Positions 12,219 to 28,160 of a DNA stretch of 34,555 nt are shown here, in pieces. The translations under genes were made by a program, and so were the position numbers. This DNA comes from an uncultured Clostridia bacterium (lineage in GTDB: Bacteria; Bacillota; Clostridia; UMGS1883), in the NCBI GenBank assembly GCA_947626145.1, contig CANQRB010000015.1, positions 1 through 34,555 of the forward strand, written 5' to 3'. Numbering within the stretch: position 1 is the stretch's first letter; each line of letters opens with the position of its first letter. The notes beneath the pieces are model-generated. The model had not been told where the DNA came from, searched no databases, and saw only the letters and a program-made list of their open reading frames with translations.

Positions 12219-12247
12219 TTGACATGGGAATTTTGGGGTGCTATCAT
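12219..12247 (+). promoter_or_regulatory. Promoter of the head-tail gene cluster
   Basis: Consensus TTGACA (12219-12224), a 17-bp spacer, and TATCAT (12242-12247). The expected start is near 12254. It is the only strong plus-strand promoter I see before the terminase. Confidence 0.72.
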
Positions 12248-12258
12248 ATATTCAAACA

Positions 12259-12272
12259 CGAACATATGTTCG
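12259..12272 (+). promoter_or_regulatory. LexA (SOS) operator
   Basis: CGAACATATGTTCG is a perfect palindrome and an exact match to the Bacillus/Firmicutes LexA box CGAAC-RNRY-GTTYG. It lies at about +5 to +18 of the predicted transcript, where a bound repressor would block initiation. It implies direct SOS control of the particle genes. Confidence 0.85.
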
Positions 12273-12374
12273 CATTTTTGTGACGAACGACCCAAAGATG
12301 AACGCCGGTTAAACAGCATTGTGCCGAACGGCAGGCGTTATTTGATCGGCGTTTACGAAAGACAGGAGGCTGAA

Positions 12375-12671
12375 ATGACAAGAAGAAAAAACGAGCTGGG
12401 CGTCAAATTTTGTATAGTCTGCGGAAAACGGATCCCCGAGTGCAGCAGCCGCCACAAAATTTGCAGCAACCGCTGCGCCCGCAAGCGGAAAAATCTGGCC
12501 CGCCACGGCATGGCCGCTCCCTACGAGTACGCCGCCGAGCCGCCCATCGCCAGCTACACTCTGGGCGAGCTGAACAAAAGGGCGGCGGATATGGGACTGA
12601 GCTACGGCCAATACATGGGCAAAATTTACAGCGGGGGTATAAGCTTTGAAGGTATCCGAAGAGCGAATTGA
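12375..12671 (+). CDS. Small zinc-finger-like phage protein upstream of terminase
   Basis: 98 residues, starting at the ATG at 12375 behind CAGGAGGC. The N-terminal half is basic with CIVCGKR, then CSSRHKICSNRCARKRK, a likely Cys4 zinc knuckle that may bind nucleic acid. The C-terminal half (YTLGELNKRAADMGLSYGQY) looks like a helical motif often seen in small proteins next to terminases. It is the first gene of the LexA-controlled cluster and overlaps the terminase start by 26 bases. It could be a regulator or a packaging accessory; the function is not established. Confidence 0.75.
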   Translation: MTRRKNELGVKFCIVCGKRIPECSSRHKICSNRCARKRKNLARHGMAAPYEYAAEPPIASYTLGELNKRAADMGLSYGQYMGKIYSGGISFEGIRRAN

Positions 12672-14163
12672 GGAATTTTTCCGCGAATGCGAAAGGGACG
12701 GACGGCCGCCCACGACCACGGGACTGGCCATGGCGCTGGACTTCAGCAGCCGGGCCGCCATGGCCGGATACAGGGGAACGGCGGAGGAAAAGGAGCTGCT
12801 GGAGCGGGCGGCGCTGAGGATAGAGAACTTCAACGAGGAAAAGCTCTTTGAAAAGGACTATGTCCGAAGCGCCATCTTCAACCTGACCAACGCTTACGAA
12901 AAGGACGGGTCCGGCGGCGGCGGAAGCCTGAGACTGCCGGCGGAGCTGGTGGGTTCGGCCTTTGTGGATCTGTACCGGGACATAAGCGCCGGCGCCCACG
13001 GGGAGTATGTGCTCAAGGGCGGGCGCGGCAGCGCCAAGTCCTCCTTTACGGCGCTGGTGGTGGTGGAGCGGCTGATGCGCCGCCCCGAGGAACACGCCGT
13101 GGCCATGCGTCAGGTGGGCGCCACCCTCAAGGACAGCGTCTACGCCCGGATTTGCTGGGCCATCGACGCTCTGGGACTGGAGGACGAGTTCGAGAAAAAG
13201 CTCATGCCGCTGGAGCTTGTCCGCCGAAGCACCGGACAGAAGATATACTTCCGAGGGGCGGACGACCCCGCCAAGCTCAAGTCCCTGACGCCGCCCTTCG
13301 GCCACGTGGGCGCACTGTGGCTGGAGGAGCTGGATCAGTTCGGCGGCGAGGCCGGCATAAGGAGCATAATCCAGAGCCTGATCAGGGGCGGGGACGGACT
13401 GGTGATGATGACCTTCAACCCTCCCCCCTCCCGCAACAGCTGGGTCAACCGCTGGGTCGCCATGCCCAAGAAAAACCGCCTTGTCCACCACAGCACCTAT
13501 CTGGACGTGCCGGAGAGCTGGCTGGGGCGGCGCTTTATCGAGGAGGCGGAGTACCTGAAGGAGAGCGACCCCAAGGCCTACGCCCACGAGTATCTGGGCG
13601 AGTGCGTGGGTCTGGGCGGGGCGGTGTTCGAAAATCTGACCCTTCGGGAGATAAGCGACGGGGAAATTTCGGGATTCGACCGGATATACAACGGCATAGA
13701 CTGGGGCTGGTACCCCGACCCCTTCCGCTTCTGCCGCTGCGCCTATATCGCCGGGGAGCGCAGGCTCTTCATCTTTGACGAGCTGAGCGGGAACAAGCTC
13801 TCCAATAGGGTGATAGCCGAAAGGCTGAGGGAAAAGGGCATAAGCTACAGCGACCGGATAACCGCCGACAGCGGCGGCGAAGGCCCCAAGAGCATAGAGG
13901 ATCTCCGGACGGAGGGCTTCATGATAAGAGGGGCCGTCAAGGGGCCGGGCAGCGTGGAGTATTCCATGAAGTGGCTCTGCGGCCTGCGGGAGATAGTCGT
14001 GGACAGCGAGCGGTGCCCCCTGACCGCCAAAGAGTTTATGGAGTACGAGTTCGATACCCGGTGCGGCGAGGTGGTGGGCGGCTATCCCGACCGGAACAAC
14101 CACAGCATCGACGCCGTGAGGTACGCCATGGAGGAGGTTTGGCGGCGCCGGGGGAGGAAGTAG
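12646..14163 (+). CDS. Terminase: small-subunit domain fused to large subunit (packaging ATPase/nuclease)
   Basis: 505 residues. Residues of about 1-85 resemble a terminase small subunit (gp3-like: GRPPTTTGLAMALDFSSRAAM, then RAALRIENFNEEKLF and IFNLTNAYEK). A Gly/Ser linker at 87-95 leads into the large subunit. Walker A is GGRGSAKS (125-132) and Walker B is ALWLEELD (223-230). The C-terminal nuclease has acidic residues in GIDWGW, TADSGG and NNHSIDAVRY. It cuts DNA and pumps it into the prohead. The two subunits are normally separate genes, so a fusion is unusual. The stop codon abuts repeat copy g. Confidence 0.9.
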   Translation: MKVSEERIEEFFRECERDGRPPTTTGLAMALDFSSRAAMAGYRGTAEEKELLERAALRIENFNEEKLFEKDYVRSAIFNLTNAYEKDGSGGGGSLRLPAELVGSAFVDLYRDISAGAHGEYVLKGGRGSAKSSFTALVVVERLMRRPEEHAVAMRQVGATLKDSVYARICWAIDALGLEDEFEKKLMPLELVRRSTGQKIYFRGADDPAKLKSLTPPFGHVGALWLEELDQFGGEAGIRSIIQSLIRGGDGLVMMTFNPPPSRNSWVNRWVAMPKKNRLVHHSTYLDVPESWLGRRFIEEAEYLKESDPKAYAHEYLGECVGLGGAVFENLTLREISDGEISGFDRIYNGIDWGWYPDPFRFCRCAYIAGERRLFIFDELSGNKLSNRVIAERLREKGISYSDRITADSGGEGPKSIEDLRTEGFMIRGAVKGPGSVEYSMKWLCGLREIVVDSERCPLTAKEFMEYEFDTRCGEVVGGYPDRNNHSIDAVRYAMEEVWRRRGRK

Positions 14164-14336
14164 GAAATGAGGAGTGAGGAATGAGGAGTGAGGAATGAGG
14201 AATATTGGGGCGGCAGTTACATTATTTGTCATTGTTTCGTATGCGGTACACACGCCAACAAGATACAACCTCACACTCTCAACGACAAAATGCCGTAACT
14301 GCTTCGTCAGTATTCCTAATTCCTAATTCCTAATTT
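14164..14336. repeat. Intergenic repeat copy g (inside the phage cluster)
   Basis: Left ends are at about 14164-14204 (runs of GAGTGAGGAATGAGGA) and the right inverted end is at about 14308-14336. Near the right end is TGCCGTAACTGCTTCGTCAG. The inner hairpin module is absent. It separates terminase from portal and ends just before the portal ribosome-binding site. Confidence 0.88.
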
Positions 14337-14359
14337 ACAGAGTGGATTGGAGGAGTACA

Positions 14360-15667
14360 ATGTTTTTTGGCACAGGAAAGAAAAAAAGGGCCGCAACGTC
14401 GCAGGCCGCGGCGCCGGAGGACGCAATCCCAACGGCGGCAGGCGCGGCGGAATCGGCCCGCAGGCGCTGGCGCTCCATGTACCTCAGCCCCGAGGGACTC
14501 AGGCTGGCGGCCGCCATCACCGGCGAGCTGGCACGCCTGACCACAATGGAGATGAAGGTCAGGGTGGAGGGCGGCGAAAAGGGCAAATTTCTCAGCGGGG
14601 CGCTGGCGCCCTTTGCCGCCGGACTGCGGCGTGAGCTGGAATACGGCCTGACGGACGGAGGGCTGGTGTTCAGGCCATACTATGACGGGAAGGAGCTTCG
14701 GGTCGAGACCGTCCGGGGGGACTGCTTCATACCCGTCGCCACGGACGGCGCGGGACGGGTCACCGAGGCGGTCTTTCTTCAGGAGATAAAGGGGGAGGAC
14801 GGGTACTACACCCGTGTGGAGCGGCACCGGCTGGAAAAGGGCGGCTGCCGCATAGAAAACACCGCCTACAAGAGCCGCTCCGCCGGTGAAAGGGGCCGGA
14901 AGGTGCCCCTGAGCGAAACCGGCCTGTGGGAGGACATGGCGGAGACCCTCTTTATCGAAAACGTGGATCGGCCCCTGTTCGGCCTGTTCCGCACCCCCTC
15001 GGCCAACCCCGCCGACCCCGCCTCACCTATGGGCGCGGCGGTTTTTGCCGGGGCCGAGGGCCTGATAAGGGACGCGGACAGACTGTACAAAAACCTGCTG
15101 TGGGAGTTCGAGAGCGGCAAGCGCCGCCTGTATGTGGACATCACCGCCTTTGACCGCGACGGCGAGGGCAATCCGAAGCTGCCGGACGCCGAGCTGTTCC
15201 GCACCGTGGACGTGAACGAGAGCAATTTTTTCAGCGAGTGGTCGCCCCAGCTTCGGAACGAGGCCATCCAGTCGGGACTGAACAGCGTCCTCCAGAGGAT
15301 AGAGTTCAACTGCGGACTGGCCTACGGCACCATATCCCAGCCGGTATATGTGGAAAAGACGGCGGAGGAGATAAGGGCATCCAAACAGAGAAGCTACAGC
15401 TTTGTCTGCGACCTCCAGAACCAGCTCAGGCGGGCGCTGGAGGAGCTGATATACGCCATGGACGTGTGGGCTCAGGTCTACGGCCTTGTTCCCGAGGGGG
15501 AGTACGGCTGCGCCTTTGAGTTCGACGACAGCGTGGCCGCCGACCGCCAGAAGGAGTACGAGGAAAGAGTGCGGCTGGTGGAGCTGGGCGTCATGCTGCC
15601 CTGGGAGCTGCGGGCCTGGTACTTGGGCGAGGACGAAAAAACCGCGAGGGAGGCGCTGGCCCCATGA
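14360..15667 (+). CDS. Phage portal protein
   Basis: 435 residues from the ATG at 14360, behind GGAGGAG; an in-frame GTG at 14342 overlaps the repeat end. The order after terminase, the length, and features such as MYLSPEGLRLAAAITGELAR, LRRELEYGLTDGG, GLIRDADRLYKNLLWEFES and an acidic C-terminal adaptor region (SKQRSYSFVCDLQNQLRRAL) fit an SPP1/A118-type portal. The dodecameric portal forms the DNA channel of the capsid vertex. The frame is intact, and it overlaps the next gene by four bases (ATGA). No mu-F-like minor head gene follows it, as one usually would. Confidence 0.85.
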   Translation: MFFGTGKKKRAATSQAAAPEDAIPTAAGAAESARRRWRSMYLSPEGLRLAAAITGELARLTTMEMKVRVEGGEKGKFLSGALAPFAAGLRRELEYGLTDGGLVFRPYYDGKELRVETVRGDCFIPVATDGAGRVTEAVFLQEIKGEDGYYTRVERHRLEKGGCRIENTAYKSRSAGERGRKVPLSETGLWEDMAETLFIENVDRPLFGLFRTPSANPADPASPMGAAVFAGAEGLIRDADRLYKNLLWEFESGKRRLYVDITAFDRDGEGNPKLPDAELFRTVDVNESNFFSEWSPQLRNEAIQSGLNSVLQRIEFNCGLAYGTISQPVYVEKTAEEIRASKQRSYSFVCDLQNQLRRALEELIYAMDVWAQVYGLVPEGEYGCAFEFDDSVAADRQKEYEERVRLVELGVMLPWELRAWYLGEDEKTAREALAP

Positions 15668-15987
15668 AAAGGCGAAGGGTGAGGATATACCGCTACGACC
15701 GAAGCTCCGGCGGATACGTCAGTCGGGATTTCGTCTGCACCGCCGCCCTTGAGGACGGGCGGGCTTCCGAGACCGGCGGGGACTTCCGCCGTGACGGCGG
15801 CAGCATCAGGCTCATGACCCGGGCGGATAACGCCGCCGCTCCGGGGGCCTACGCTTCCTTCGACATGGAGCGGAAGGAGCCGGACAAGGAGACGGACTAT
15901 CTTGTCACCGCCGTCCGGGACAACCGGCGGGGCGGCCTGCCCCATTGGAGGCTGATAGTAAATGGCAGATATAAGAGTCAGCGTTGA
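15664..15987 (+). CDS. Putative head-tail joining/minor capsid protein
   Basis: 107 residues, starting in the ATGA overlap with the portal gene. It is very basic at the N-terminus (MKRRRVRIYRY) and beta-rich, with a fold hint of a head-tail adaptor (AYASFDMERKEPDKETDYLVTAV, HWRLIVNGRY). It overlaps the next gene by 26 bases. In A118-like phages a pair of small minor capsid genes sits after the capsid gene; this one would correspond to the first of that pair. The assignment rests mainly on position and size. Confidence 0.55.
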   Translation: MKRRRVRIYRYDRSSGGYVSRDFVCTAALEDGRASETGGDFRRDGGSIRLMTRADNAAAPGAYASFDMERKEPDKETDYLVTAVRDNRRGGLPHWRLIVNGRYKSQR

Positions 15988-16309
15988 GCTGAAACCCGCG
16001 AATCAAATCATCGGCGAGCGGGGACTGGACAAGGGCGGACGGGTGCAGCGGTACATAGACGGGGCGGTCGTCGACTTTTGCGAGCCATACGTCCCCTTCG
16101 ACACCGGCGCTTTGAAGGAAAGTCCCCGCACCTGCTCCCCGCCTGGTGAGGGACGGGTGGTCTACGGCGTGCCCTACGCCCGCCGCCAGTATTACGAAAA
16201 CAAAGGCGACGGGGGCCTGCGCGGGGCGCGGTGGTTCGACAGAATGAAAGCCGACCGGCTGGACGAGATTGTACAGGGGGCGAAAGAAGCAATTAGGAAT
16301 GAGGAGTGA
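15962..16309 (+). CDS. Minor capsid protein 2-like head-tail connector
   Basis: 115 residues. The core matches the Minor_capsid_2 family by eye: YVPFDTGALKES, VVYGVPYARRQYYE, GLRGARWFDRMKADRLDEIV. The family forms part of the head-tail interface of Firmicutes siphoviruses. The last five residues, Ile-Arg-Asn-Glu-Glu, and the TGA stop are encoded by the left end of repeat copy h, so the natural C-terminus was probably replaced by repeat insertion. It normally lies downstream of the capsid gene; here it precedes the scaffold. Confidence 0.8.
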   Translation: MADIRVSVELKPANQIIGERGLDKGGRVQRYIDGAVVDFCEPYVPFDTGALKESPRTCSPPGEGRVVYGVPYARRQYYENKGDGGLRGARWFDRMKADRLDEIVQGAKEAIRNEE

Positions 16310-16420
16310 GGAATGAGGAATGAGGAAGGAGGAATATTGCGGGGGCAGTTAAGCCTTCACCTCGAAGGGAAGGCTTAATTGTACGGCAGTTACATACTTT
16401 GTTAACAACACAATTACACA
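16291..16420. repeat. Intergenic repeat copy h (left end, truncated)
   Basis: It starts AATTAGGAATGAGGAGTGAG inside the preceding reading frame. Repeated GGAATGA units then lead to GCGGGGGCAGTTA. A separate palindrome (TTAAGCCTTC and AAGGCTTAA, about 16348-16380) interrupts it. No right inverted end is present. Confidence 0.82.
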
Positions 16421-16442
16421 TACATAAAAAAGGAGCGGGAAA

Positions 16443-16763
16443 ATGAAATTCACATACGGAAACTTCAGCCGCGAAATCGACAACATGGACGTGGCGGTGG
16501 TGAAAAGCTACGAGAAAAATCTTGAGGAATTTTACCGGCGGGTGGCCCGCATCGACATGAAAAAGACCGCCAGCGGCATCTACGCCGAGATCTGCGGCGC
16601 CGGCGAGGCCATGCTGGACGGCTTTCTGGGAGAGGGCGCGTACAGGGAGATGTTCGGCGAGAGCCAGAGCGTCCGCAAGGTTATGGAGGCGGTCTGCGGC
16701 CTTAACGCTTTCATGAACGACGTGGGGGCCGTGGTGGACTGCATGAGGAGGGTCGGGGCTTGA
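16443..16763 (+). CDS. Putative tail assembly chaperone (first of pair)
   Basis: 106 residues behind AAAGGAGCGGG. It is all-helical in appearance (NMDVAVVKSYEKNLEEFYRRV, SGIYAEICGAGEAMLDGFLGEGAY) with a C-terminal VRKVMEAVCGLNAFMNDV. It directly precedes a Gp15-like gene and overlaps it by four bases (TTGA). In A118-like phages this two-gene unit sits between the tail-tube and tape-measure genes and chaperones tail assembly. Here the unit lies before the scaffold gene, between two repeats. Confidence 0.65.
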   Translation: MKFTYGNFSREIDNMDVAVVKSYEKNLEEFYRRVARIDMKKTASGIYAEICGAGEAMLDGFLGEGAYREMFGESQSVRKVMEAVCGLNAFMNDVGAVVDCMRRVGA

Positions 16764-17302
16764 GCCTGCTGACCGACGACCTGCCCGACAGCGTCACCCT
16801 TGACGGAGTGAGCTACGGCGTCCGAACCGACTTTCGGGACTGGCTGCGGTTCTACGGCTGCGCGGGGCGGCGGGATCCGGTAGGTATGCTGCTGGTGTAC
16901 CGCCGGCTGCCGCCCTCGCTGGAAAAGGCTCTGGAGCTGGCGGCGGAGTTCGGCCGGGGCGGGGCTTTGCCCTACGGCGAAAAGCGGCCCGGCCGCCGGC
17001 CGGTGCTTGACTACGAGGCCGACGCGCCCCTGATCTACGCGGCCTTTATGAGCGAGTACGGCATCGACCTCTGCGAGGCGCGGCTGCATTGGTATCGGTT
17101 TTGCGCCCTGCTGGCCGGTCTGAGCGAGGATCGGCCGCTGGTAAGGCTCATGAGCCTGCGGGCCGCCGACCCCGCCGACCGGAGCGACAGCCGCCGACGG
17201 GCGGAGATCAGGCGGCTCCAGCGGATATACGCCTGTCCCGACCGCCGCACCGACGCGGAACGGGAGGCGGACGCCATGGAGGCGCTGGGGAAGTTCTATT
17301 AG
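16760..17302 (+). CDS. Gp15-family phage tail assembly protein
   Basis: 180 residues, starting with TTG at 16760, overlapping the previous stop and preceded by GAGGAGGG. Family features: SLLTDDLPDSVTLDGVSYGVRTDFRDWLRF, then a conserved core DYEADAPLIYAAFMSEYGIDL, ARLHWYRFCALLAGL. This is the Gp15 protein of Listeria A118-like phages, taken to be the second tail chaperone. The TAG stop falls in the first bases of repeat copy i (CTATTAGAATGAGG). Confidence 0.82.
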   Translation: MSLLTDDLPDSVTLDGVSYGVRTDFRDWLRFYGCAGRRDPVGMLLVYRRLPPSLEKALELAAEFGRGGALPYGEKRPGRRPVLDYEADAPLIYAAFMSEYGIDLCEARLHWYRFCALLAGLSEDRPLVRLMSLRAADPADRSDSRRRAEIRRLQRIYACPDRRTDAEREADAMEALGKFY

Positions 17303-17487
17303 AATGAGGAGTTAGGAATGAGGAATGAGGAATATTGGCGGGGCAGGTACGGCGTGCGCGTGTGTGTACCGTAAATGAGGTATTTGTCATTCCAGCATTT
17401 ACGGTATAAACCAATAAAAACTTATGGCATCAATGACAAATAATGTAATTGTCACGCTGCTATTCCTCATTCCTCATTTCTAATTTA
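17298..17487. repeat. Intergenic repeat copy i (inside the phage cluster)
   Basis: The left end ATTAGAATGAGGAGTTAGGA begins in the Gp15 stop codon. The right inverted end is at about 17460-17487 (TATTCCTCATTCCTCATTTC). The middle is short and AT-rich, with no GC hairpin module. Confidence 0.88.
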
Positions 17488-17506
17488 CTTGGGGGGAGGT
17501 GATAAA

Positions 17507-17887
17507 ATGAACATGGAGTTTTTGACCGGACTGGGGCTGGACGACGAGACCGCCGGCAGAATAATGGCGGAGCACGAATCCGACGTTCGGGAGCTGGAGG
17601 GCCGCCTGAACGACCGCGACCGGCAGATGGACGAGCTGCGTCTGGACGGCGACATCGACCGTGAGCTAACCGGACTGGGGGCCAGAAACCTACGGGCCGC
17701 GAGGGCCCTGCTGGACATGGAGGCACTGAGGGCCAGCGCCGACCGCGAGGCCGAGCTTCTCGCCCAGCTGGAGGAGATACGCCGGGAAAACGGTTACCTC
17801 TTCAGGGACGGACACACGCCTGTGGTGTCCGGCCCCACCGCCAGGGCCGAAAGGGGCTTTGGCTTCAGATTTACAGGCGTAAGATGA
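17507..17887 (+). CDS. Phage scaffolding protein (GP20-like)
   Basis: 126 residues. The start at 17507 follows an extended GGGGGAGGTG. The N-terminus (FLTGLGLDDETAGRIMAEHE) leads into a long acidic coiled coil (about 25-100), as in phage GP20-type scaffolds. It lies directly upstream of the capsid gene. Scaffolds guide capsid assembly and leave before packaging. No separate prohead protease is visible. Confidence 0.8.
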   Translation: MNMEFLTGLGLDDETAGRIMAEHESDVRELEGRLNDRDRQMDELRLDGDIDRELTGLGARNLRAARALLDMEALRASADREAELLAQLEEIRRENGYLFRDGHTPVVSGPTARAERGFGFRFTGVR

Positions 17888-17915
17888 AAAGTATGAAGGG
17901 AGATCGAAAAAAACT

Positions 17916-18800
17916 ATGGCTGCTATCAACTATGCCACCGAATACGCCGGCACTCTTGCCCAGGCGTACCCCTATGTGCTGAATTTCGGAGCGCTTTACG
18001 CCGCCGAAAACGACAGCCGCTACCGCTGGGTCAACGCCAAGACCATCGAGATACCGTCCATCACAACCACCGGCAGGGTGGACGGCGACCGCGACACCGT
18101 GGCCACGGCCAAGCGCAATTACGACAATGCGTGGGAGATGAAAACCCTCTCCCACCACCGCAAGTGGAGCACCCTTGTCCATCCCATGGACATCGACGAG
18201 ACAAACATGGCCGTCTCCATAAGCAACATAACCCAGGTATACAACGAGGAGCACAAGTTCCCCGAAATGGACGCCTACACCGTGTCGGAGATATACAGGC
18301 TTTGGACCGAGGCGGGCAACACCCCCGACAAGACCGTCCTCACGGCGGAAAACGTCCTTTCGGTATTCGACGCCATGATGGAGAACATGGACGAGGCGAG
18401 GGTTCCCGCCAAGGGCCGCATCCTCTATGTAACCCCCGCCGTCAAGACCATGCTCAAAAACGCCGACCAGCTCTCCCATGTGGTGAACAACGGCGACGCA
18501 AAGATCGACCGCGGCGTGGCCGACCTGGACAGCGTGGAGATAATCGCCGTGCCCAAGGACCTGATGAAAACGGAGTACGACTTCACCACGGGCTGGAAGG
18601 TGGGCGGAGAGGCCAAGCAGATCAATATGCTCCTCGTCCACCCCAGCGCGGTCATAACTCCCGAGAAGTACACCTTTGCCCGACTGGACGAGCCCAGTGC
18701 CGGCAGCGAGGGCAAGTATGTCTACTTCGAGGAGAGCTACGACGGAGTGTTCATCCTCAACAAGCGTATGGGCGGCATCGCCATAAACGCCGAGGCCTGA
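17916..18800 (+). CDS. Major capsid protein
   Basis: 294 residues behind AAGGGAGA. The opening INYATEYAGTLAQAYPYVLNFGALYA, the beta-rich core (KTIEIPSITTTGRVDGDRD), VFDAMMENMDEARVPAKGRILYVTPAVKTMLK and the end VFILNKRMGGIAIN match a common Firmicutes prophage capsid group (HK97-fold by inference). Position after a scaffold and before connectors supports it. The frame is intact. Confidence 0.88.
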   Translation: MAAINYATEYAGTLAQAYPYVLNFGALYAAENDSRYRWVNAKTIEIPSITTTGRVDGDRDTVATAKRNYDNAWEMKTLSHHRKWSTLVHPMDIDETNMAVSISNITQVYNEEHKFPEMDAYTVSEIYRLWTEAGNTPDKTVLTAENVLSVFDAMMENMDEARVPAKGRILYVTPAVKTMLKNADQLSHVVNNGDAKIDRGVADLDSVEIIAVPKDLMKTEYDFTTGWKVGGEAKQINMLLVHPSAVITPEKYTFARLDEPSAGSEGKYVYFEESYDGVFILNKRMGGIAINAEA

Positions 18801-18819
18801 TTCGTCGCGGGGGTGAGTC

Positions 18820-19167
18820 ATGCTTTATGAGGAATATCTTGAGCGTACCTTCGCCTCCGAGCCCGTGCCGGAAAAGGAATTCGGCTTTTACAGGGACAAG
18901 GCGGAGAAGCTCATCGAAACGCTGACCTTCGGCCGGAGCCGCGACTCCGAGCTGGAGGAGGTGGCCTGCGCCGAAACGGAGCTGATACAGTTCTTCTTTG
19001 AGAACGGCGGCGCACGGGGCATCGTCAGCGAGAGCAACGACGGCTACAGCGTGACCTACGCCGCCGGAGGAGAGCCGGCGGCGGCCCGTGACATCGTCCG
19101 CCAGTGGCTGGGGGACACGGGGTTGATGTACGCCGGTGTGGAGGACTGCCGCTATGGCGATAATTGA
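18820..19167 (+). CDS. Putative head-tail connector protein
   Basis: 115 residues behind GGGGGTGAG. Two helical parts (MLYEEYLERTFASEPVPEKEF; DKAEKLIETLTFGR; ELIQFFFENG) precede a short C-terminal region. Its size and position straight after the capsid gene fit a connector that plugs the portal. It overlaps the next gene by 14 bases. The family was not recognised with certainty. Confidence 0.65.
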   Translation: MLYEEYLERTFASEPVPEKEFGFYRDKAEKLIETLTFGRSRDSELEEVACAETELIQFFFENGGARGIVSESNDGYSVTYAAGGEPAAARDIVRQWLGDTGLMYAGVEDCRYGDN

Positions 19168-19573
19168 CAGCCTTAAGGCGTTCTTCGAGGAGTGCCCGCT
19201 GCTGGAGGACGGCCGGATAAACGTGAACTATCTCGGGCCGGAAAAGGCGGACTACAGTATCGAAAGCGTCCCCGCCGCTCCCGTGGTGCGCCGGTACGTG
19301 GACGGAGCCGAGGTGCGGCAGTATGTGTTCGTCTTTGCGTCCCGGGAGTGGTACGACGAGGACCGCCTTGGCAATATGGACACGGCCCGCTTCTATGAGG
19401 AGCTGGGCGGATGGATAGACGAAAGGAACAGGAGCGGCGCGCTGCCGCTCCTGGACAAGGGCATGAGGGCGCTGGGGCTGGAGGTCACCTCGGGGGGATA
19501 TGTGCTGTCCGCCCGTGGCGGCACCGCCAGATTTCAGCTCCAGTGCCGGCTTATATACAGAAAGGAAGGTTGA
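19154..19573 (+). CDS. Minor capsid protein 3/tail terminator-like protein
   Basis: 139 residues from the ATG at 19154. Phrases such as LKAFFEECPLLEDGRINVNYLGP, DYSIESVPAAPVVRRYVDG, RQYVFVFASREWY and TARFQLQCRLIYRKEG are typical of a phage family at the head-tail junction. From memory, it is sometimes misannotated as a chloramphenicol resistance protein. In related phages the other two minor capsid genes sit just before it; here it follows the connector directly, with a 14-base overlap. Confidence 0.75.
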   Translation: MAIIDSLKAFFEECPLLEDGRINVNYLGPEKADYSIESVPAAPVVRRYVDGAEVRQYVFVFASREWYDEDRLGNMDTARFYEELGGWIDERNRSGALPLLDKGMRALGLEVTSGGYVLSARGGTARFQLQCRLIYRKEG

Positions 19574-19577
19574 TCTT

Positions 19578-20039
19578 ATGGCATTGGTTAAGCGCTGCGA
19601 AAAGCTGGCGTTCATGAAGGTGGGCGAAAAGTACTGCCGCATGACCAATTTTACGGAAATATCCGTGGGCAAGAACACTAAGGAATACACCCGTCAGTAT
19701 GTGGACGAGGAATTCGAGCGCTCCAGCGTGGTGGGCTACGCCACCTCGGTGAGCTACAGCTTCGATTACGACAACGAGAACGAGGTTCACGCCGCGATAA
19801 AGAAGATAACCGACGGCGAGCTGCTGGCCGACGACGCCGTGGTGGAGATCGTCATGGTGGACGTCACCGACGAGGAGAGCTCCAACAACGCCATCAGCCG
19901 CAGCTGGAGCGTTATCCCCGAAAACGAGGGCGGCAGCATCGACGCCTACACCTACAGCGGCAGCTTCCGGGCCAACGGCCCCGGCAAGGTCGTGTCCGCC
20001 GTGTCCACCGACGGGTGGCAGACCATAACCGTCAAATAA
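19578..20039 (+). CDS. Major tail (tube) protein
   Basis: 153 residues from the ATG at 19578, behind GGAAGG. It is beta-rich: FMKVGEKYCRMTNFTEISVGKNTKEYTRQYVDEEFE, SVSYSFDYDNENEVH, and a C-terminal YSGSFRANGPGKV. This pattern fits a siphovirus tail-tube subunit. The next gene, 29 bases away, is the tape measure; the chaperone pair normally lying between them is instead at 16443-17302. Confidence 0.8.
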   Translation: MALVKRCEKLAFMKVGEKYCRMTNFTEISVGKNTKEYTRQYVDEEFERSSVVGYATSVSYSFDYDNENEVHAAIKKITDGELLADDAVVEIVMVDVTDEESSNNAISRSWSVIPENEGGSIDAYTYSGSFRANGPGKVVSAVSTDGWQTITVK

Positions 20040-20068
20040 GTCCTTAGTCCTGACAGGGAGGTGAAAGC

Positions 20069-22045
20069 ATGGCGGGAGACGGAAGTATAATCATAGACAC
20101 CCAACTTGATACCGAGGGTCTGGAAAAAGGGCTCGGCGAGCTTAAGTCCCTCATCGAGAACGGTATGGGCGGGGCAAAGGACGCCTTCAGCAAGGCCATA
20201 GACGAAATGGGCTCCGCCATGGCCGCGGATTCCCTGGCCGAGGGTGCGGGAAAGATGATGTCGGCGGCGGCGGAAGCCGTCAGGGGCGGGGCCTCGGAGC
20301 TGTATTCCGCCGCCGAAAGCGCGGCACGGAATGCGGCGGAGGGGCTGAGCTACTCCGCCGGTGATTTCGGCTCCGGCGGACGGGAACTTGCCGACGCCGC
20401 AGCCGGAGGTTACCGTGGGGCCGGAGGCGGACTGGGAGACGCCGCCGTTTCCTCCGCCGAAAGCGCGGCTCGGGGGCTGTCCTCCAAGACCGGGGACTTC
20501 GGCTCCGGCGGACGGGGCCTTGCCGACGCCGCCGCCGGGGGCTACCGCGCCGTTGGGGGCGGACTGGGTGACGCCGCCGAAGCCTCCGCCAACGAGGCGT
20601 TGGGCCGGCTGAACGGAACGGGCGAAAGCTTCCGCACCGGCGGTCAGGGCCTGTCCTCGGCCACGGCGGAGGGAATTTCCGCCGGAGCGCCCCAGGTGGG
20701 GGACGCGGCGGAGTCCGCCGTGAGGAACGCCGCCGCCCGTATGAGGATAGACGGCGAGTTCAGCGGCATCGGCGCCAACCTTATGAGCGCCCTGCGCGGG
20801 GGCCTTGCCGCCGGAGCCGGAGCGCTGTACGCCAAGGCCGCCGAGATAGCCGCCCAAGTGGTGGCCGTCATGAAAAGCGCCTTCAGCATACACTCCCCCT
20901 CGGCGGTGTTCCGGGACGAGATAGGCAAAATGCTGATGCTGGGCCTGCGGGACGGCATCGTGAACAATCGGGAGCTCGTTCTGGCCGCCACGGAGGAGCT
21001 GGCGAAGGATATGCTGGACTCGGAGCGCCGCTATCTCGAGGAAAAGGAGCGCCTTGACCTTGAAAGCGACAAGGCCGAGGAGGAGCGGCGGGTCAGGGAG
21101 TACGAAATCAAGCTGAGTCAGGCCCAAAGCCAATCCGAGCGGGAGGAGCTGATCGAGGAGGAAAGGCTGCGGCTGAAAAAGCGGGCCGACAGCCGCTATC
21201 TGGATCAGCTGAAGGAAACGGCCGAAAACGAAAGGGAGATAATCGACACCCTCAAGGACGACATAACCTCCATGTACGAGGAGATCGCCGCCCGAATCGA
21301 GGACAGTCTCGAGCCCATAGCCGAGAGTCGGGAAAAGCTGGAGAAAAGCCTTAAAAGCTACGCCTCCGCCAGCACCGGCGCGAGGGAGCTAAGGATACTG
21401 AACTCCGATGGAGAGGTGGAGTCCACCCTTTACGGTCTGGCGGATCAGCGGGAGAGCATAGATATGCTCAACCGCTACGCCCAAGCCATGGAGCGGGCCG
21501 CCGACCGCATAAAAACGGAGTTCGACACAGCGACGGCACGGGACTTCATGCGTGCTCTGGCGGACATGGACATCGACGAGGGGGCGCTGTTCGCCGAGAC
21601 CCTGTCGGCCGCTCCGGCGGAGGACTTCCACCGGTACATACGAGACTGGGGCCTGAAAAACACTCTGGCGGAGGAGATCTCCCGCCAGATCTACGGCGAG
21701 GAGTTCACCGAGGCGGTGGACAGCGCCACGGAATACATGAGGTCGGAGCTGGAGGCCATGGGCCTTGAGGTGCCGGAGGGCTTCTTCGCCAGCGGCACTC
21801 TCAGCGCACGGGAGTTCGGCGAGGGCTTCGCTCAGGGGCTCAACGAGGTGCTGGAGGACGCCCGCCGGACGGTGGAGGGCTTCGGCTCCTTTGCGGGCGT
21901 GGTGATAAGCGCCGCCGCTCCGGTTGTGACCAACAACAACTATTACAGCACTTATTCCGTCAACGGAACCAGAAGCACGGCCGCCGAGAGCATTTTTGCC
22001 CTTGAGGCGGCGGCCACAATGAACAGGTACAGGGGGCTTGACTGA
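20069..22045 (+). CDS. Tail tape measure protein with internal 44-residue repeats
   Basis: 658 residues behind GGAGGTG. An N-terminal GSIIIDTQLDTEGLEKGLGEL is typical of tape measures. An Ala/Gly-rich region holds three tandem units of 44 residues (GDFGSGGR-type motifs at nucleotides about 20363, 20495 and, diverged, 20627). Then comes the family motif FSIHSPSAVFRDEIGKM at about residues 271-287, a charged coiled coil at about 310-430, and a C-terminal region. The protein sets tail length. Its repeat number may vary between strains. It overlaps the next gene by one base. Confidence 0.9.
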   Translation: MAGDGSIIIDTQLDTEGLEKGLGELKSLIENGMGGAKDAFSKAIDEMGSAMAADSLAEGAGKMMSAAAEAVRGGASELYSAAESAARNAAEGLSYSAGDFGSGGRELADAAAGGYRGAGGGLGDAAVSSAESAARGLSSKTGDFGSGGRGLADAAAGGYRAVGGGLGDAAEASANEALGRLNGTGESFRTGGQGLSSATAEGISAGAPQVGDAAESAVRNAAARMRIDGEFSGIGANLMSALRGGLAAGAGALYAKAAEIAAQVVAVMKSAFSIHSPSAVFRDEIGKMLMLGLRDGIVNNRELVLAATEELAKDMLDSERRYLEEKERLDLESDKAEEERRVREYEIKLSQAQSQSEREELIEEERLRLKKRADSRYLDQLKETAENEREIIDTLKDDITSMYEEIAARIEDSLEPIAESREKLEKSLKSYASASTGARELRILNSDGEVESTLYGLADQRESIDMLNRYAQAMERAADRIKTEFDTATARDFMRALADMDIDEGALFAETLSAAPAEDFHRYIRDWGLKNTLAEEISRQIYGEEFTEAVDSATEYMRSELEAMGLEVPEGFFASGTLSAREFGEGFAQGLNEVLEDARRTVEGFGSFAGVVISAAAPVVTNNNYYSTYSVNGTRSTAAESIFALEAAATMNRYRGLD

Positions 22046-22893
22046 TGGAGATGATTTTTACCGGCGCCGGTTCCGCGGTGCGGATGGACGGGGGCGGCGG
22101 AGGCGCGCCCCTGAAGATACTTAAGACCGAGGGGCTGGGCTTCCTGCCCCAGAACGCGGTCACGGCCTCCTATCCCTTTTTGAGCGGACAGCGCACCCTG
22201 TCCCGGTCGCCGGGGGCGCGGCTCATAACCGTGTCCGCCGAGGCCGCACGGGGAGGGGTCAGCCACGAGGGCGCCATTGCCGCCGCCGTCCACTATCCCG
22301 GACGGCTGGAGATAGTCCACGGCGGCAGGCGGGTCTACGCCGAATGTTACGTCAGCGGCATGGACGTCACCCGTGCCGTGGGCGGACAGTTCGAGCGCTA
22401 CGTGTTCCAGTTCACCTGCGACTACCCCTACTTTCGGGACAGCGTCCCCTCCGGAACCAGCCTGTTCCGGAGGGAGAATTACATCAAGGGGAGGTTCACC
22501 CTGCCCAAGGTGTTCTCCGGACGGGTCACAGGCGGGCTGGTCAGGGTCACAGGCGACAGGGAGGTGCTGCCCCGCATAACCGTCAACGGTCTCGACGGCG
22601 GCGACGGGCTGCCGCTGGAGATAGTCAACGCCACCACGGGAGCGGCCCTGCGGCTCGACCTCCCCGCCGGAGAGTACGGGCCGGTGGTCTTTGACCTGTG
22701 GAACGGCAGGATATACTCGGGTCAGACGGATCTGACAAAATATCTGGACGAGGACAGCTTCATGAGCGATTTTTACCTTGTCAGAGGGGACAACCGTCTG
22801 GAGATAAAGGCCATGGACGTTTCGGTGAACACCTCCGCCTCCGTGACATTTGAAAACGAGTACTATTCCGCCTGGGAGGACAGCGATGCATAG
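22045..22893 (+). CDS. Distal tail protein (Dit)
   Basis: 282 residues; the start overlaps the tape-measure stop (TGATG). Features of the siphovirus Dit family include SGQRTLSRSPGARLITV, RVYAECYVSGMDVTRAVGGQFERYVFQFTCDYPYF, SLFRREN and a C-terminal NRLEIKAMDVSVNTSASVTFE. Dit forms the ring linking the tail tube to the tip. Confidence 0.85.
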   Translation: MEMIFTGAGSAVRMDGGGGGAPLKILKTEGLGFLPQNAVTASYPFLSGQRTLSRSPGARLITVSAEAARGGVSHEGAIAAAVHYPGRLEIVHGGRRVYAECYVSGMDVTRAVGGQFERYVFQFTCDYPYFRDSVPSGTSLFRRENYIKGRFTLPKVFSGRVTGGLVRVTGDREVLPRITVNGLDGGDGLPLEIVNATTGAALRLDLPAGEYGPVVFDLWNGRIYSGQTDLTKYLDEDSFMSDFYLVRGDNRLEIKAMDVSVNTSASVTFENEYYSAWEDSDA

Positions 22894-23827
22894 AGAGCTG
22901 ATATTCTACGACTACGAGTTCAACCCCCTGGGCAGGGCGTCGGGGGTGTCGGACATCTATTACAAGGAAATGTACAACGGAATTGGAACCTTCGAGGCGG
23001 AGCTGGACGCGGACGGGTCCATGGCGGCGGAGCTGATGGATCGGGACTACACCGTGGCGGTGTGGGACGGGCTTCAGGCCGTGATAACCTCGGTGCGGGC
23101 CGCAGAGGGCGAGGGCGTGCTAAAGGTCTACGGCCGCACGCCCAACTGGCTCCTGTCCCGACGGGCCTGTCCCAACTTCGGCCACAGAACCGGCGAACCT
23201 CACGCGCTGGCCCACCGGCTGACGGAGGAGGTCTGGGGCGACAGCATCGTCACCGGCTCCGGAGCGGACATCAAAACGGGAGAGATAACCTTCTGGCGCA
23301 ACGTCTACAACCCCCTCAGCGAGGTGGTGGCCGACTGTCTGGACAGGGCCGGAGGCGGCCATCGGGTGGTCTTTGATACGCGGTCGAGGGAGTGGCGCTT
23401 CGAGACCTACGAGGGGCGGCGGCGCAGGCTTATGTTCTCCGCCGACCGGCGCAGCGCGGCGGGCATGACCTACAGCCGCAGCGTGCTGGATCACTACAAC
23501 GGCGGCTTTTATACCACCGACGAGGACGAGAAGGTCTGGAAGGAGCTGCCCTCGGACAGGGAGGGCATCTACCGCTGGACGGCCCGGCTCACCAGTTCCG
23601 GCGCCAGCTCGGCGGAGAGCGAACTGAAAAGGAAGAAGATCGAGAACAGCGTTGACTTCACCGCCTTGGGGCTGCGGCGGGGCGTGGACTACGAGCTGGG
23701 GGACATAGTTTACGGCTCGAGCCTTTTCGGCAGGAAAAAGGTGACAGGCGAACTGCGGGTGGCCGCCGTGGAGCGGTGGGCGTCGTATAACGACAGCGGC
23801 GAGCGGCCATTGTTAGAGAGTGTGTGA
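22886..23827 (+). CDS. Tail hub protein (Gp37/Tal-like)
   Basis: 313 residues from the ATG at 22886, behind GGGAGGACA and overlapping Dit by eight bases. The N-terminus (ELIFYDYEFNPLGRASGVSDIYYKEMYNGIGTFEAEL) and GVLKVYGRTPNWLLSRR match the ReqiPepy6 Gp37-like tail proteins. The C-terminus (GVDYELGDIVYGSSLFGRKKVTGELRVAAVE) is the usual end of the hub domain. No peptidase or lysin extension is present. It closes the core tail module; repeat copy j follows. Confidence 0.83.
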   Translation: MHRELIFYDYEFNPLGRASGVSDIYYKEMYNGIGTFEAELDADGSMAAELMDRDYTVAVWDGLQAVITSVRAAEGEGVLKVYGRTPNWLLSRRACPNFGHRTGEPHALAHRLTEEVWGDSIVTGSGADIKTGEITFWRNVYNPLSEVVADCLDRAGGGHRVVFDTRSREWRFETYEGRRRRLMFSADRRSAAGMTYSRSVLDHYNGGFYTTDEDEKVWKELPSDREGIYRWTARLTSSGASSAESELKRKKIENSVDFTALGLRRGVDYELGDIVYGSSLFGRKKVTGELRVAAVERWASYNDSGERPLLESV

Positions 23828-23833
23828 GAGTGG

Positions 23834-24098
23834 ATAATTAGGAATATTGGATAATTAGGAGTTAGGAATGAGGAATGAGGAATACTGACGGGGCAGTTAC
23901 GGCGAGTGGCTTGTGTGTGCCGGTAATGTGACCTGTACTCCGTAGGGGCGCTCATTGGGCGCCTGCCATCAAACGTTTACGGCGACAACGATAAACGAAA
24001 TTACAAATTAAATTTTCCTGTACCGCCTTACGTTAACAATGACAAATAATGTAACTGTCGCATATATTCCTAATTCCTCACTCCTCATTCCTAATTTC
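23834..24098. repeat. Intergenic repeat copy j (full length)
   Basis: The left end is partly doubled (23834-23850, 23852-23884). GACGGGGCAGTTACGGCG follows, then a hairpin module GGGGCGCTC-ATT-GGGCGCC at about 23944-23963, then ACGTTAACAATGACAAATAA and a right inverted end to 24098. It is one of the two best full copies. Confidence 0.92.
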
Positions 24099-24119
24099 AA
24101 AAACAGAAGGAGATAAAAA

Positions 24120-24986
24120 ATGAAATATTATTTTGGCGACAACAGAGAATACGGCGCGGGGGACATAAAAAAGGCCCTCGGCGCGCTGGCGGCCACAGGG
24201 GGCATCGAGCTGGAGTTAAGCGACGGCAGCGAGTACACGCCCTCCAAGCTCAACTCCATCATCGCCTCCGCCGTGTCCCATGGGGTGCTGACCGAAAGCA
24301 ACAGCTGTCTGCGGCTAGAAAAGAGCGGCGGCAGTTACTATATCAGCCCCGGAAGGGGAATTTTCGCCGACGGGGGCGTGGCCGAGGTGGAGGAGCGCAC
24401 CGAGGTGGACGTGCTCCCCGGCCAGTACCTGTACATAGCATATAACAGTATGCTGGACGATGTGTATTTCCTTGCCGATGCTCAGGAGCACAGCGACGGC
24501 GGCGACCTCCTGCTCATACCCATAGCCTATATAGAAAACGGCGGCGCGGTGACGGACAGGCGGGTTTTTGCCCGGGGCAGGATACCGGCCCTGCCCTCCG
24601 CCACATGGAACGTCCTTCGGGAAACGGAGTTCGTCATCGATGACAGCACCGTCACCCACGGCGACATTGGCGTCGGCGGCTATGTGGAGGCGCGCCACCC
24701 CATAGACGGGGAGATCAATTTCATGATGGTGGAGAGCCTCACCCGCATAGCCACCATGTCGCTGGAGGCCGACGGGCCGGTGTATCACACCGTGGCCGCG
24801 GGCGGGGGCGGCAACGAGGGCCGCTGGATGGACTTCATGAGCGTGGGCTATACCACCGGCCAGATTAAGGCCACCTATCTGGACAGCGGCCCCGGCTTTA
24901 TCAGCCTTCGGTACTATCTGCCCAGTAAGTATCCCGGCTCCCGGCGCTATGCTTATAAGGCCCTTGTGGGGATAAAGGTGAAATGA
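24120..24986 (+). CDS. Putative tail fibre/baseplate-associated protein
   Basis: 288 residues behind AGAAGGAGA. The N-terminus (YYFGDNREYGAGDIKKALGAL) and the middle (SYYISPGRGIFADGGVAEVEERTEVDVLPGQYLYIAYN, LLLIPIAYIENGGAVTDRRVFARG) resemble N-terminal attachment domains of phage baseplate or fibre proteins. The C-terminus looks like a small beta domain. The stop TGA lies in the first bases of repeat copy k. It is the last recognisable particle gene. Confidence 0.6.
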   Translation: MKYYFGDNREYGAGDIKKALGALAATGGIELELSDGSEYTPSKLNSIIASAVSHGVLTESNSCLRLEKSGGSYYISPGRGIFADGGVAEVEERTEVDVLPGQYLYIAYNSMLDDVYFLADAQEHSDGGDLLLIPIAYIENGGAVTDRRVFARGRIPALPSATWNVLRETEFVIDDSTVTHGDIGVGGYVEARHPIDGEINFMMVESLTRIATMSLEADGPVYHTVAAGGGGNEGRWMDFMSVGYTTGQIKATYLDSGPGFISLRYYLPSKYPGSRRYAYKALVGIKVK

Positions 24987-25085
24987 GGAATGAGGAATAA
25001 ATAATGCGGCAGTTACACACCATGGCAACGATGACAAGTTTATCGGTAGGTCGCGCCGATGTGCGGCGTTAGTGTGACCGTAAAA
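24981..25085. repeat. Intergenic repeat copy k (left half)
   Basis: The left end AAATGAGGAATGAGGAATAA starts in the stop codon of the preceding gene. GCGGCAGTTACA and a decayed GGTCGCGCCGATGTGCGGCG module follow. It runs straight into the toxin-antitoxin locus; the matching right half appears beyond it (copy l). Confidence 0.75.
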
Positions 25086-25108
25086 GTGAAATTTTAAATT
25101 AAAATCAC

Positions 25109-25137
25109 TTGACAAAGCAAAAAATACCGTGTATAAT
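25109..25137 (+). promoter_or_regulatory. Promoter of antitoxin-like RNA, locus 2
   Basis: A perfect consensus: TTGACA (25109-25114), a 17-bp spacer, TATAAT (25132-25137). Confidence 0.88.
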
Positions 25138-25143
25138 AAAAAC

Positions 25144-25229
25144 AGATAGAGGCAAGCCCGTAAAACGGTTAGCCGAGTGTATTAGTTAAAATAACTGCCA
25201 CACTTGACCATGGGGGCAGTTATTTTTTT
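25144..25229 (+). ncRNA. Antitoxin-like small RNA, locus 2
   Basis: An RNA of about 85 nt from a consensus promoter to a strong hairpin terminator, with no reading frame of note. Its 5' part carries a stem-loop (CCGT-AAA-ACGG inside GGC...GCC). Its 3' part is antisense to the end of the peptide gene 25220-25315. It is nearly identical at its 5' end to the RNA at 30308. Confidence 0.7.
25188..25229. terminator. Bidirectional terminator, locus 2
   Basis: A 12-bp stem (25188-25199 with 25215-25226), with T runs on both strands. It serves the small RNA (plus) and the toxin-like mRNA (minus); the toxin stop codon lies in the stem. Confidence 0.85.
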
Positions 25230-25315
25230 GTGGTGTAGTAAATGATGATCCAACACGCTATGTTTATGCCCCATGTTAATGCGAGCATAAAAAACAATGT
25301 GAACACATCAAGCAT
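25220..25315 (-). CDS. Hydrophobic 31-residue toxin-like peptide (type I TA), locus 2
   Basis: 31 residues starting at 25315, behind the strong GGGAGGTGG at about 25322-25331. A nearly continuous hydrophobic segment (residues 4-28, with two Trp) ends in Thr-Thr-Lys-Lys. That fits a single membrane-spanning toxin of the Fst/TxpA kind, although no specific family was identified. A convergent antisense RNA and shared terminator support type I toxin-antitoxin organisation. Unlike locus 1, no convincing promoter lies upstream: repeat copy l begins where it should be. It may be poorly expressed or silent. Confidence 0.65.
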   Translation of the reverse strand: MLDVFTLFFMLALTWGINIACWIIIYYTTKK

Positions 25316-25380
25316 CACAAACCACCTCCCTTCCATTGTTAAAATGAAAGTGTTGATGGCAGGCAACTAATGCTCTCACA

Positions 25381-25460
25381 TACGGAGTACAGGCTACATT
25401 TATGGTACACATACGCAAAACGCCGTAAATGTCCCGTCAGTATTCCTCATTCCTGATTTT
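25381..25460. repeat. Intergenic repeat copy l (right half)
   Basis: AAACGCCGTAAATGTCCCGT and the inverted end CAGTATTCCTCATTCCTGAT. With copy k on the other side it brackets toxin-antitoxin locus 2. Confidence 0.8.
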
Positions 25461-25463
25461 CCA

Positions 25464-25511
25464 CAAAAAAAGGTACGGCCGCGCAACCGCAGGGCGGGGC
25501 GCGACCGTACC
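25464..25511 (-). terminator. Terminator of apgM
   Basis: On the minus strand, GGTACGG(T)CGCG pairs with CGCG(G)CCGTACC and is followed by seven T residues. Confidence 0.85.
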
Positions 25512-25532
25512 GATATATCACGTTTTAAAAAT

Positions 25533-26732
25533 TCAAGAAAGAAATTCCCTCATCAGCTCATGTCCGACGGTGCGCACCTGTCCGTGTTTCTCGGCGCAGG
25601 CCTCGGAGTAAACGAAGCCGGTTTTATTATCCTCGCCCTTCCTGTACATAACGCAGGGAATACTCTCGCCGCTGTGGGTCTTGATGGACACGGGTGTGGG
25701 GTGGTCGGGCAGCACCATGAACTTATAGTCCTCGCCGCTCTCGTCCAGCCGGGCCTTTACATAGCCGATTATCTTTTCGTCTATGAGCTCAAGGCTGCGC
25801 TTCTTGCCCTCGGGATCACCCTGATGGCCGCACTCGTCCGGAGCCTCAAGGTGAATGTACACCAGATCGCAGCCCTCTTTCAGCAGAGCGTCGGCGGCGG
25901 CTTTGGCCTTGCCGTCGAAGTTGGTGCTCAGGGTGCCGGTGGCCCCCTCCACGTCGATGCTGCGCATACCGGCCAGAATGCCGATGCCCTTGATGAGATC
26001 GACGGCGCTGACCACGGCGCCCTTCACGCCGTAAAGCTCCTCGAAGCTTGACAGTGCGGGCTTTTTGCCCTCGCCCCATATCCAAAGGGAGGTGGCGGGA
26101 TTTTTGCCGGCGGCGATACGGGCCTTGTTCACCGGATGCTCGCGAAGTATCTTTTCGCTCTTTTTCATCAGGTCGAGAATGACCTCGTTGTCGGGCAGGT
26201 AGGGCCCGACCTTTTTGTCGGAAATGTCGTGAGGCGGAGTGAGCCTGAAGCTCTCCGGTGCATCGTCCCAGACGAAGAGGTGGCGGTAGCTGACGCCGGG
26301 ATAGAAGTGTATTCCGCCGCCGCCAAGCTCGGCCTCCACGGCACGCAGGAGCTGTGTGCTCTCGGCGGTGGTTATCTCGCCGGAGCTGTAGTCCACCATG
26401 GTTTTGTCGGCGTAGTCCGCCTCATCGCTGAGGGTGACGGTGTTGGCCCGAAAGGCCGTCTGGTTGGGCAGAAGCTCCACTCCGATGGAGGCGGCCTCCA
26501 GAGGGGAGCGGCCGGTGTAGTAGAGGTGAGGGTCGTAGCCCATGACCGAGAGATTGGCCACGTCGCTGCCGGGCTTCATGCCGGTGGGCACCGTCTGGAC
26601 AAAATACAGGCTGCCTTTGTCGGCGAAGCTGTCCATGTTGGGCGTATATGCGGCCTCGAGAGGGGTCTTGCCCCCAAGAGACTCCACGGGACGGTCCGCG
26701 CAGCCGTCCGCCAAAACTATTACGTATTTCAT
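25533..26732 (-). CDS. apgM: Cofactor-independent phosphoglycerate mutase, archaeal (ApgM) type
   Basis: 399 residues from the ATG at 26732, behind GGAAAGGATTGA; an upstream in-frame ATG has no such site. It interconverts 3- and 2-phosphoglycerate in glycolysis using two metal ions and a phosphoserine. Visible residues: Asp9 in VLADGCADRP, the nucleophile Ser62 in DVANLSVMGYDP, HLEAPDECGHQGD, and LPDHPTPVSIKTHSGE near the end. The group is the archaeal-type iPGM, also common in Clostridia, and related to phosphonopyruvate decarboxylase-like mutases. It is transcribed alone, with its own promoter and terminator. Confidence 0.92.
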   Translation of the reverse strand: MKYVIVLADGCADRPVESLGGKTPLEAAYTPNMDSFADKGSLYFVQTVPTGMKPGSDVANLSVMGYDPHLYYTGRSPLEAASIGVELLPNQTAFRANTVTLSDEADYADKTMVDYSSGEITTAESTQLLRAVEAELGGGGIHFYPGVSYRHLFVWDDAPESFRLTPPHDISDKKVGPYLPDNEVILDLMKKSEKILREHPVNKARIAAGKNPATSLWIWGEGKKPALSSFEELYGVKGAVVSAVDLIKGIGILAGMRSIDVEGATGTLSTNFDGKAKAAADALLKEGCDLVYIHLEAPDECGHQGDPEGKKRSLELIDEKIIGYVKARLDESGEDYKFMVLPDHPTPVSIKTHSGESIPCVMYRKGEDNKTGFVYSEACAEKHGQVRTVGHELMREFLS

Positions 26733-26756
26733 GAAATCAATCCTTTCCTTCATAAT

Positions 26757-26785: not shown

Positions 26786-26843
26786 CCTCGCCGCATAAAT
26801 TTAACAAAAAACATTAAAAATAACAGGGATTAGGAGGATGGAT

Positions 26844-28157: not shown

Positions 28158-28160
28158 CTT

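Follow-up and report, generated by a model that had tools for sequence, protein, structure and literature searches.

What is a cluster of phage head, packaging and tail genes doing in a bacterial chromosome, directly behind a LexA box and with no genes for lysogeny, replication or lysis beside it? The original prediction was that the host itself induces a particle resembling PBSX or a gene transfer agent (GTA). We analyzed the stretch of DNA concerned (the window: contig C15, bases 1-34555, of the 2.44-Mb genome G000) within a genus sample of eight MAGs (G000-G007), every locus being on a MAG contig. The records are labeled 'uncultured Clostridia bacterium' and 'Lapin', and we read the latter as placing the genus in the rabbit gut. 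Gene content and order, conservation, the host-like tree, the LexA and promoter motifs and the lysis genes of a second operon were read directly from the sequence.

Results

Gene content of the cluster

The cluster, which we call operon I, has 16 open genes in G000 (12375-24986) for head, packaging and tail (Table 1). The promoter, the LexA box and the approximately 16 intact genes of the original prediction were all found where it had placed them. The genes are not as tightly packed as it had described, however: the cluster contains four gaps, each about 130-290 bp long and occupied by GGAATGAGGAAT-type repeats. The first gene starts at the ATG at 12375, and the TTG at 12219 is part of the -35 box.

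Profile matches support the identification of the terminase large subunit (TerL), portal, minor capsid, Gp15, scaffold, major capsid (MCP) and adaptor proteins, and of the tail completion, tape measure, Dit and Gp37-like tail proteins. The N-terminus of TerL matches the gp3/small-terminase family (PF16677, phrog_606), as if a small and a large terminase had been fused. In all complete copies, from five species, the Walker A (GGRGSxKS) and Walker B (LWLEELDQ) motifs are invariant, as are D352, D408 and D489, which are likely the nuclease residues. A structure prediction for the last protein (mean pLDDT 63) has only weak matches to phage tail fibers and receptor-binding proteins, and we take from it no more than that the protein is beta-rich. 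The homologue of this protein in a prophage of G003 sits between a tail protein and a fiber. The DUF6673-like and Gp15 genes (16443-17302) precede the scaffold and capsid genes, an unusual position for apparent tail-assembly genes, and this placement is kept in every species of the genus that has the cluster.

The remainder of the window contains host genes: spo0A, hisD, ypeB, yabP, yabQ, feoB, and genes for an aldehyde dehydrogenase, a phosphoglycerate mutase, an S1 protein and a D-Ala-D-Ala carboxypeptidase. Among the main window ORFs scanned there was no integrase, repressor, lysogeny, replication or lysis family, in keeping with the claim that no such gene lies alongside the cluster.

Table 1. 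Coordinates of the promoter, LexA box and genes of operon I in the window, and of operon II in the same genome
Feature	Position	Strand	Support or remark
Operon I promoter, TTGACA-17-TATCAT, spacer motif GGGAATTTTGGGGTGC, extended -10 (TGCTATCAT)	12219..12247	+	kept in 5/5 species
LexA (SOS) box CGAACATATGTTCG, perfect palindrome	12259..12272	.	just 3' of -10
Zinc-ribbon-like protein, 98 aa	12375..12671	+	homologue in G007 prophage, 59%
Terminase large subunit, Terminase_3 + nuclease domain	12646..14163	+	family match
Portal protein	14342..15667	+	phrog_533, E 3.6e-103
Small protein, probable head-completion or adaptor	15664..15987	+	role inferred from position; 50-92% within genus
Minor capsid protein	15962..16309	+	PF11114
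DUF6673-like protein, probable tail-assembly chaperone (inferred)	16443..16763	+	just below Pfam cut-off
Phage Gp15	16760..17302	+	PF06854
Capsid scaffold	17489..17887	+	PF06810
Major capsid protein	17916..18800	+	phrog_422
Head-tail adaptor	18820..19167	+	phrog_541
Tail completion protein	19136..19573	+	phrog_3266
Probable tail tube protein	19578..20039	+	phrog_3099, unannotated; role inferred from position
Tape measure protein, 658 aa	20069..22045	+	family match
Distal tail protein Dit	22045..22893	+	phrog_33
Gp37-like tail protein	22886..23827	+	PF14594
Last protein, beta-rich tail-tip or baseplate, 288 aa	24120..24986	+	homologue in G003 prophage
Operon II	G000:C14, about 24832-29679	minus	holin + amidase families

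Promoter and LexA box of operon I

The -35 element (TTGACA, 12219-12224) and the -10 element (TATCAT, 12242-12247) are separated by a 17-bp spacer. By motif count alone the LexA box is unexceptional: the 2.44-Mb genome has two copies of CGAACNNNNGTTCG and seven of the reversed control. It is exceptional by its conservation. Promoter and box are retained in all five species of the genus with the region assembled (the box as the variant CGAACAAATGTTTG in G003), and the DNA upstream of the promoter is not conserved in the same five. The same box type is found ahead of lexA in seven genomes and ahead of recA in three (G003, G001 and G007). Across the genus, RAACAWATGTTY gives a handful of sites per genome; lexA, recA, a radical-SAM gene, a YneA-like LysM gene and operon I were among those checked. 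Because the box is conserved and is of the type found at lexA and recA, operon I appears to belong to the host SOS regulon, in line with the direct induction by the host that the original prediction had proposed.

Elsewhere in the genus, a stretch of about 60 bp ahead of a Wzz/chain-length-like gene contains three GAACNNNNGTTC sites (G000:C2:164842-164904). A possible further SOS-linked element, at G003:C4:97619, consists of a 91-aa gene and a recombinase-like ORF behind a LexA box and a promoter that contains AGGGTGCTATAATA.

A second operon with a matching promoter

Searching the genus for SOS boxes alone found lexA, recA, the LysM and radical-SAM genes and the cluster, and no lysis gene. 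A holin family search across the genus detected operon II, which contains one or more baseplate/fiber genes, a holin and an N-acetylmuramoyl-L-alanine amidase with an SLH domain. In G000 it is on contig C14, which agrees with the forecast that a lysis gene would lie elsewhere.

The two promoters are alike through the spacer (TTTACAGGGAAATTTTAGGGTGATACTATT at operon II versus TTGACATGGGAATTTTGGGGTGCTATCATA at operon I). Genus-wide, a combined 25-base pattern matches exactly at the promoters of these two operons and nowhere else; with up to two mismatches there were two other weak sites, and the reversed control gave 0. Because the combined pattern was built from both promoter sets, we also derived a weight matrix (PWM) from the five operon I promoters alone and scanned 604 kb on both strands, covering selected stretches only. 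After the operon I promoters themselves, the five operon II promoters ranked highest among distinct loci (25.0-27.3 bits), followed by a site scoring 22.8.

A perfect LexA box (GCGAACATACGTTCGC) also accompanies operon II in G006 and G004, positioned with respect to the promoter as it is at operon I. No perfect box was found at operon II in G000, G007 and G003, and coordination in these three must therefore come from the shared promoter, some other regulator or a weaker LexA site. Operon II was not found in the fragmented assemblies of G001 and G002. Baseplate and fiber genes are separate in G000 and G007, and are a single fused protein in G003, G006 and G004. Since the holin tree has unequal branch lengths and the fiber genes differ between subclades, operon II evolves faster and may have exchanged modules.

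We considered the lysis cassettes of prophages on G000:C1 and G007:C4 as the partner of operon I and rejected them: the endolysin differs, and these prophages have no match to the shared promoter pattern. A prophage in G003 (C18, about 27.7-50 kb) carries tape measure (TMP), Dit, Tal, last, fiber and amidase genes contiguously. These are homologous to genes of operon I and operon II, at about 29-31% for tape measure, Dit and last. Because the homologues are contiguous there, the simplest history is the division of a phage late region into two parts that were kept behind matching promoters and domesticated.

Distribution, descent and chromosomal site

The 16-gene set, whole or cut by contig ends, is present in seven of the eight genomes. 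All 16 genes have the same order in G000, G007, G003 and G006, and the set is contig-cut in G001, G002 and G004. No operon I genes were found in G005 (assembly 91% complete, in 260 contigs). MCP orthologues are 85-97% identical in six of the seven other genomes of the genus. An MCP search in 60 relatives gave any match in 12, those outside the genus being 24-29% identical; the best identity outside the genus was at most 65% in genome contigs and at most 69% in viral contigs. For TerL the best identity in IMG/VR was 62%, and the Gp37-like protein had no confirmed relative there. No locus outside the genus had detectable relatives of at least eight of the 16 genes, and the zinc-ribbon, g4, DUF6673, Dit, Gp37-like and last proteins had no relatives in those loci. 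We found no circulating phage with the same genes among the 60 relatives or in IMG/VR.

Some phage relatives reside within the genus itself. Prophages at G000:C1:429735 and G007:C4:28550 have an MCP 61-69% identical to that of the cluster and different lysis cassettes, and the latter has the homologue of the zinc-ribbon protein. A second, distant TerL (36%) at G000:C5:60144-61310 has one in-frame TAG and is probably part of a decaying prophage.

Purifying selection, put forward in the original prediction as a check across relatives, is evident in the G000/G007 pair, in which dN/dS is 0.04-0.26 across all operon I genes. Portal, scaffold and capsid are constrained, the capsid most strongly (MCP 0.04-0.11), and the host yardstick hisD has a value of 0.06. 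Three forward ORFs to the left of hisD have dN/dS >1 compared to values well below 1 for the cluster genes, so the measure discriminates. We set these ORFs aside as evidence in themselves since they are probably antisense shadows of minus-strand genes. There were no broken frames or frameshifts in cluster genes in the seven species. An apparent disruption of the tail completion gene in G006 and G004 was discounted because the stop precedes the start and the frame is intact.

The tree of concatenated particle proteins, with full support, is ((G006,G004),((G003,G001),(G002,(G000,G007)))). Ribosomal-protein and lexA trees are compatible with it for the genomes in common, and we read this as descent of the cluster with its host.

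The chromosomal site is not fixed, contrary to what had been expected. The left neighbor is hisD in G000 and G007, and yabPQ lies 3-4 kb downstream in G000, G003 and G001 with differing intervening genes. The flanks in G006 (coaX and comF/pgsA/rimO) and in G002 (coaD/rsmD) are unrelated to the others. There is no integrase or att-like repeat at the cluster ends, and the repeats of at least 13 bp common to both flanks are generic GGAATGAGGAAT only. Because a recombinase and att-like repeats are absent, the changing neighborhood is most simply read as the result of chromosomal rearrangement around the cluster.

In both G000 and G007, MITE-like GAGGAATGAGGAAT-type repeats fill intergenic gaps within the cluster and on both sides of it (in the window at 10379, 10417, 11954, 12085, 14190, 16308, 17320, 17462, 23870, 24985 and 34142). 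They interrupt none of the cluster genes and are absent from the examined stretches of other species. Such repeats could promote rearrangement around the cluster.

These results bear on whether the genus has been entered repeatedly by a prophage, ordinary or defective, or by a satellite-type element. Repeated entry would fit the phage-type genes, the several chromosomal neighborhoods and the occurrence of MCP relatives in complete phages and prophages. However, the trees are compatible with that of the host, integrase and replication genes are absent, the frames are intact in seven species, orthologues are limited to the genus (60 relatives, IMG/VR), and the promoter is common to a separate lysis operon. 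We consider repeated entry very unlikely, and on the trees and distribution we reject a recent prophage. The congruent trees, low dN/dS, lack of frameshifts and lack of a circulating phage with the same genes instead argue for domestication, as the original prediction proposed.

Discussion

A probable domesticated particle system

Based on our results, we conclude that the cluster is probably (at a rough probability of 0.7) the first of two operons that together encode a phage-like particle of the GTA type, domesticated by the host and inherited vertically. Several hallmarks of a GTA are present: phage-type head, tail and packaging genes within the host chromosome, a structural cluster without genes for self-replication or integration, and vertical inheritance across species divergence (seven of eight genomes, compatible trees, dN/dS <1). 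To these the sequence adds predicted production under a host regulator, through the conserved LexA box, and host-encoded lysis functions in operon II. Two hallmarks of an ordinary prophage, a phylogeny independent of the host and an integrase or att sites at the ends, were not found. The idea of a host-induced particle like PBSX or a GTA thus stands with respect to the SOS link, domestication and lysis genes elsewhere, and falls with respect to a fixed chromosomal site.

We see about even odds for a more specific reading, a siphovirus-type GTA of spore-forming gut Clostridia that is wired directly into the SOS regulon and by which, upon DNA damage, part of the population lyses and shares chromosome fragments. 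Such fragments could be used by kin for repair. Under the main reading, DNA damage would activate RecA and lead to cleavage of LexA, which presumably binds the box at the beginning of operon I and would thereby vacate it. Heads and siphovirus-like tails would then be made, and operon II would provide fibers and lyse the producing cell. Heads would most likely package host chromosomal DNA, presumably at random, and release it to kin, which could take it up by transfer. DNA-filled heads appear to be under selection, because the TerL motifs are kept and portal, scaffold and capsid are constrained, and the packaged DNA is most likely chromosomal because a replication gene and an integrase are absent.

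Several observations weigh against the GTA reading. Functional phages also show purifying selection. The site varies across the genus, and G005 has no operon I genes. In addition, the searches gave no operon II for G001 or G002, its LexA box is absent in G000, G007 and G003, and the holin branch lengths suggest module exchange.

The sequence of the terminase does not reveal cargo specificity, and domesticated heads might carry a specific cargo, or the particle might be extracellular and empty. However, neither locus showed a cargo gene, and an intact terminase and portal imply DNA packaging. We regard such a particle as extremely unlikely.

The main rival to the GTA reading is a PBSX-like killing particle that is SOS-induced, holds host DNA in its heads without delivering it, and kills relatives lacking immunity, in the role of a bacteriocin. 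The SOS link, host-only inheritance and the variable fiber operon would suit a weapon of competition. In contrast, the strong selection on capsid, portal and terminase (dN/dS of 0.04-0.11 for the MCP) would be superfluous for a killer acting by its tail only, and the regulators and lysis genes of PBSX are in one element rather than in a split system like the one here. PBSX has been described as a GTA-like element without DNA injection (PMC12946183). Delivery and killing are inseparable by sequence alone; we judge the killing particle unlikely.

If the GTA reading is true, a particle owned by the host could move pieces of bacterial DNA between cells upon DNA damage, which would directly tie it to the DNA-damage response. 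The conserved two-promoter architecture would account for the coordination of head-tail and lysis operons that lie apart from each other. Known GTAs outside the Alphaproteobacteria are few, and this system would add one from a different phage type. The 25-bp promoter pattern (spacer GGGAATTTTGGGG), the LexA box and the operon I capsid are sequence handles for searches of gut Clostridia, and could help to assign random host DNA in gut virus-like particles to a machine.

Comparison with known systems

Clostridial siphoviruses and prophages, such as that on G003:C18, share the order TMP-Dit-Tal-last-fiber-amidase with this system. That prophage has these genes in one piece, whereas here the late region is divided between two loci and comes without genes for lysogeny and replication.

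In PBSX, a single locus encodes an Xre repressor of its own, a sigma-like factor and the lysis genes. In contrast, an Xre-type repressor and a sigma-like factor are absent among the 16 genes, and the lysis genes are at a second locus, on another contig. The system would nevertheless resemble PBSX in being an SOS-induced, domesticated Gram-positive particle with heads, as its genes suggest (compare PMC12946183).

The original prediction held that such a particle would be unusual for this lineage. This view needs updating, since GTA-like packaging has by now been described for gut members of the Ruminococcaceae, Oscillospiraceae and Christensenellaceae (PMC12946183). FpGTA of Faecalibacterium prausnitzii, which is backed by particle and DNA evidence, has a domesticated structural operon in all 12 Faecalibacterium genomes examined in that study and a second, distant operon with baseplate, fiber, holin and endolysin genes; it is podovirus-like, with 10 ORFs in 10.5 kb, and the word 'LexA' does not occur in the text of the paper (PMC12946183). 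The system described here, known from its genes, likewise belongs to gut Clostridia and has a domesticated structural operon (TerL, portal, scaffold, capsid) and a second operon with fiber, holin and lysis enzyme, a likeness of architecture. Unlike podovirus-like FpGTA, the cluster is siphovirus-like (tape measure, Dit, Gp37-like and probable tube proteins), with 16 genes in 12.6 kb, and it has a LexA box, whereas no LexA control is mentioned for FpGTA.

RcGTA and its relatives in the Alphaproteobacteria have split loci, with a main cluster and with lysis and fiber genes elsewhere. Our system appears to share with them vertical inheritance, host regulation and this splitting of loci. Links between LexA and GTAs have a precedent there: LexA works through cckA in Rhodobacter capsulatus, and the GTA cluster of D. 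shibae has a predicted LexA site (PMC6473078). The system here belongs to a different phylum. What is unusual in it, compared to RcGTA, is a predicted LexA box that lies directly on the structural operon, is conserved across five species, and in two of them is also found on the lysis operon.
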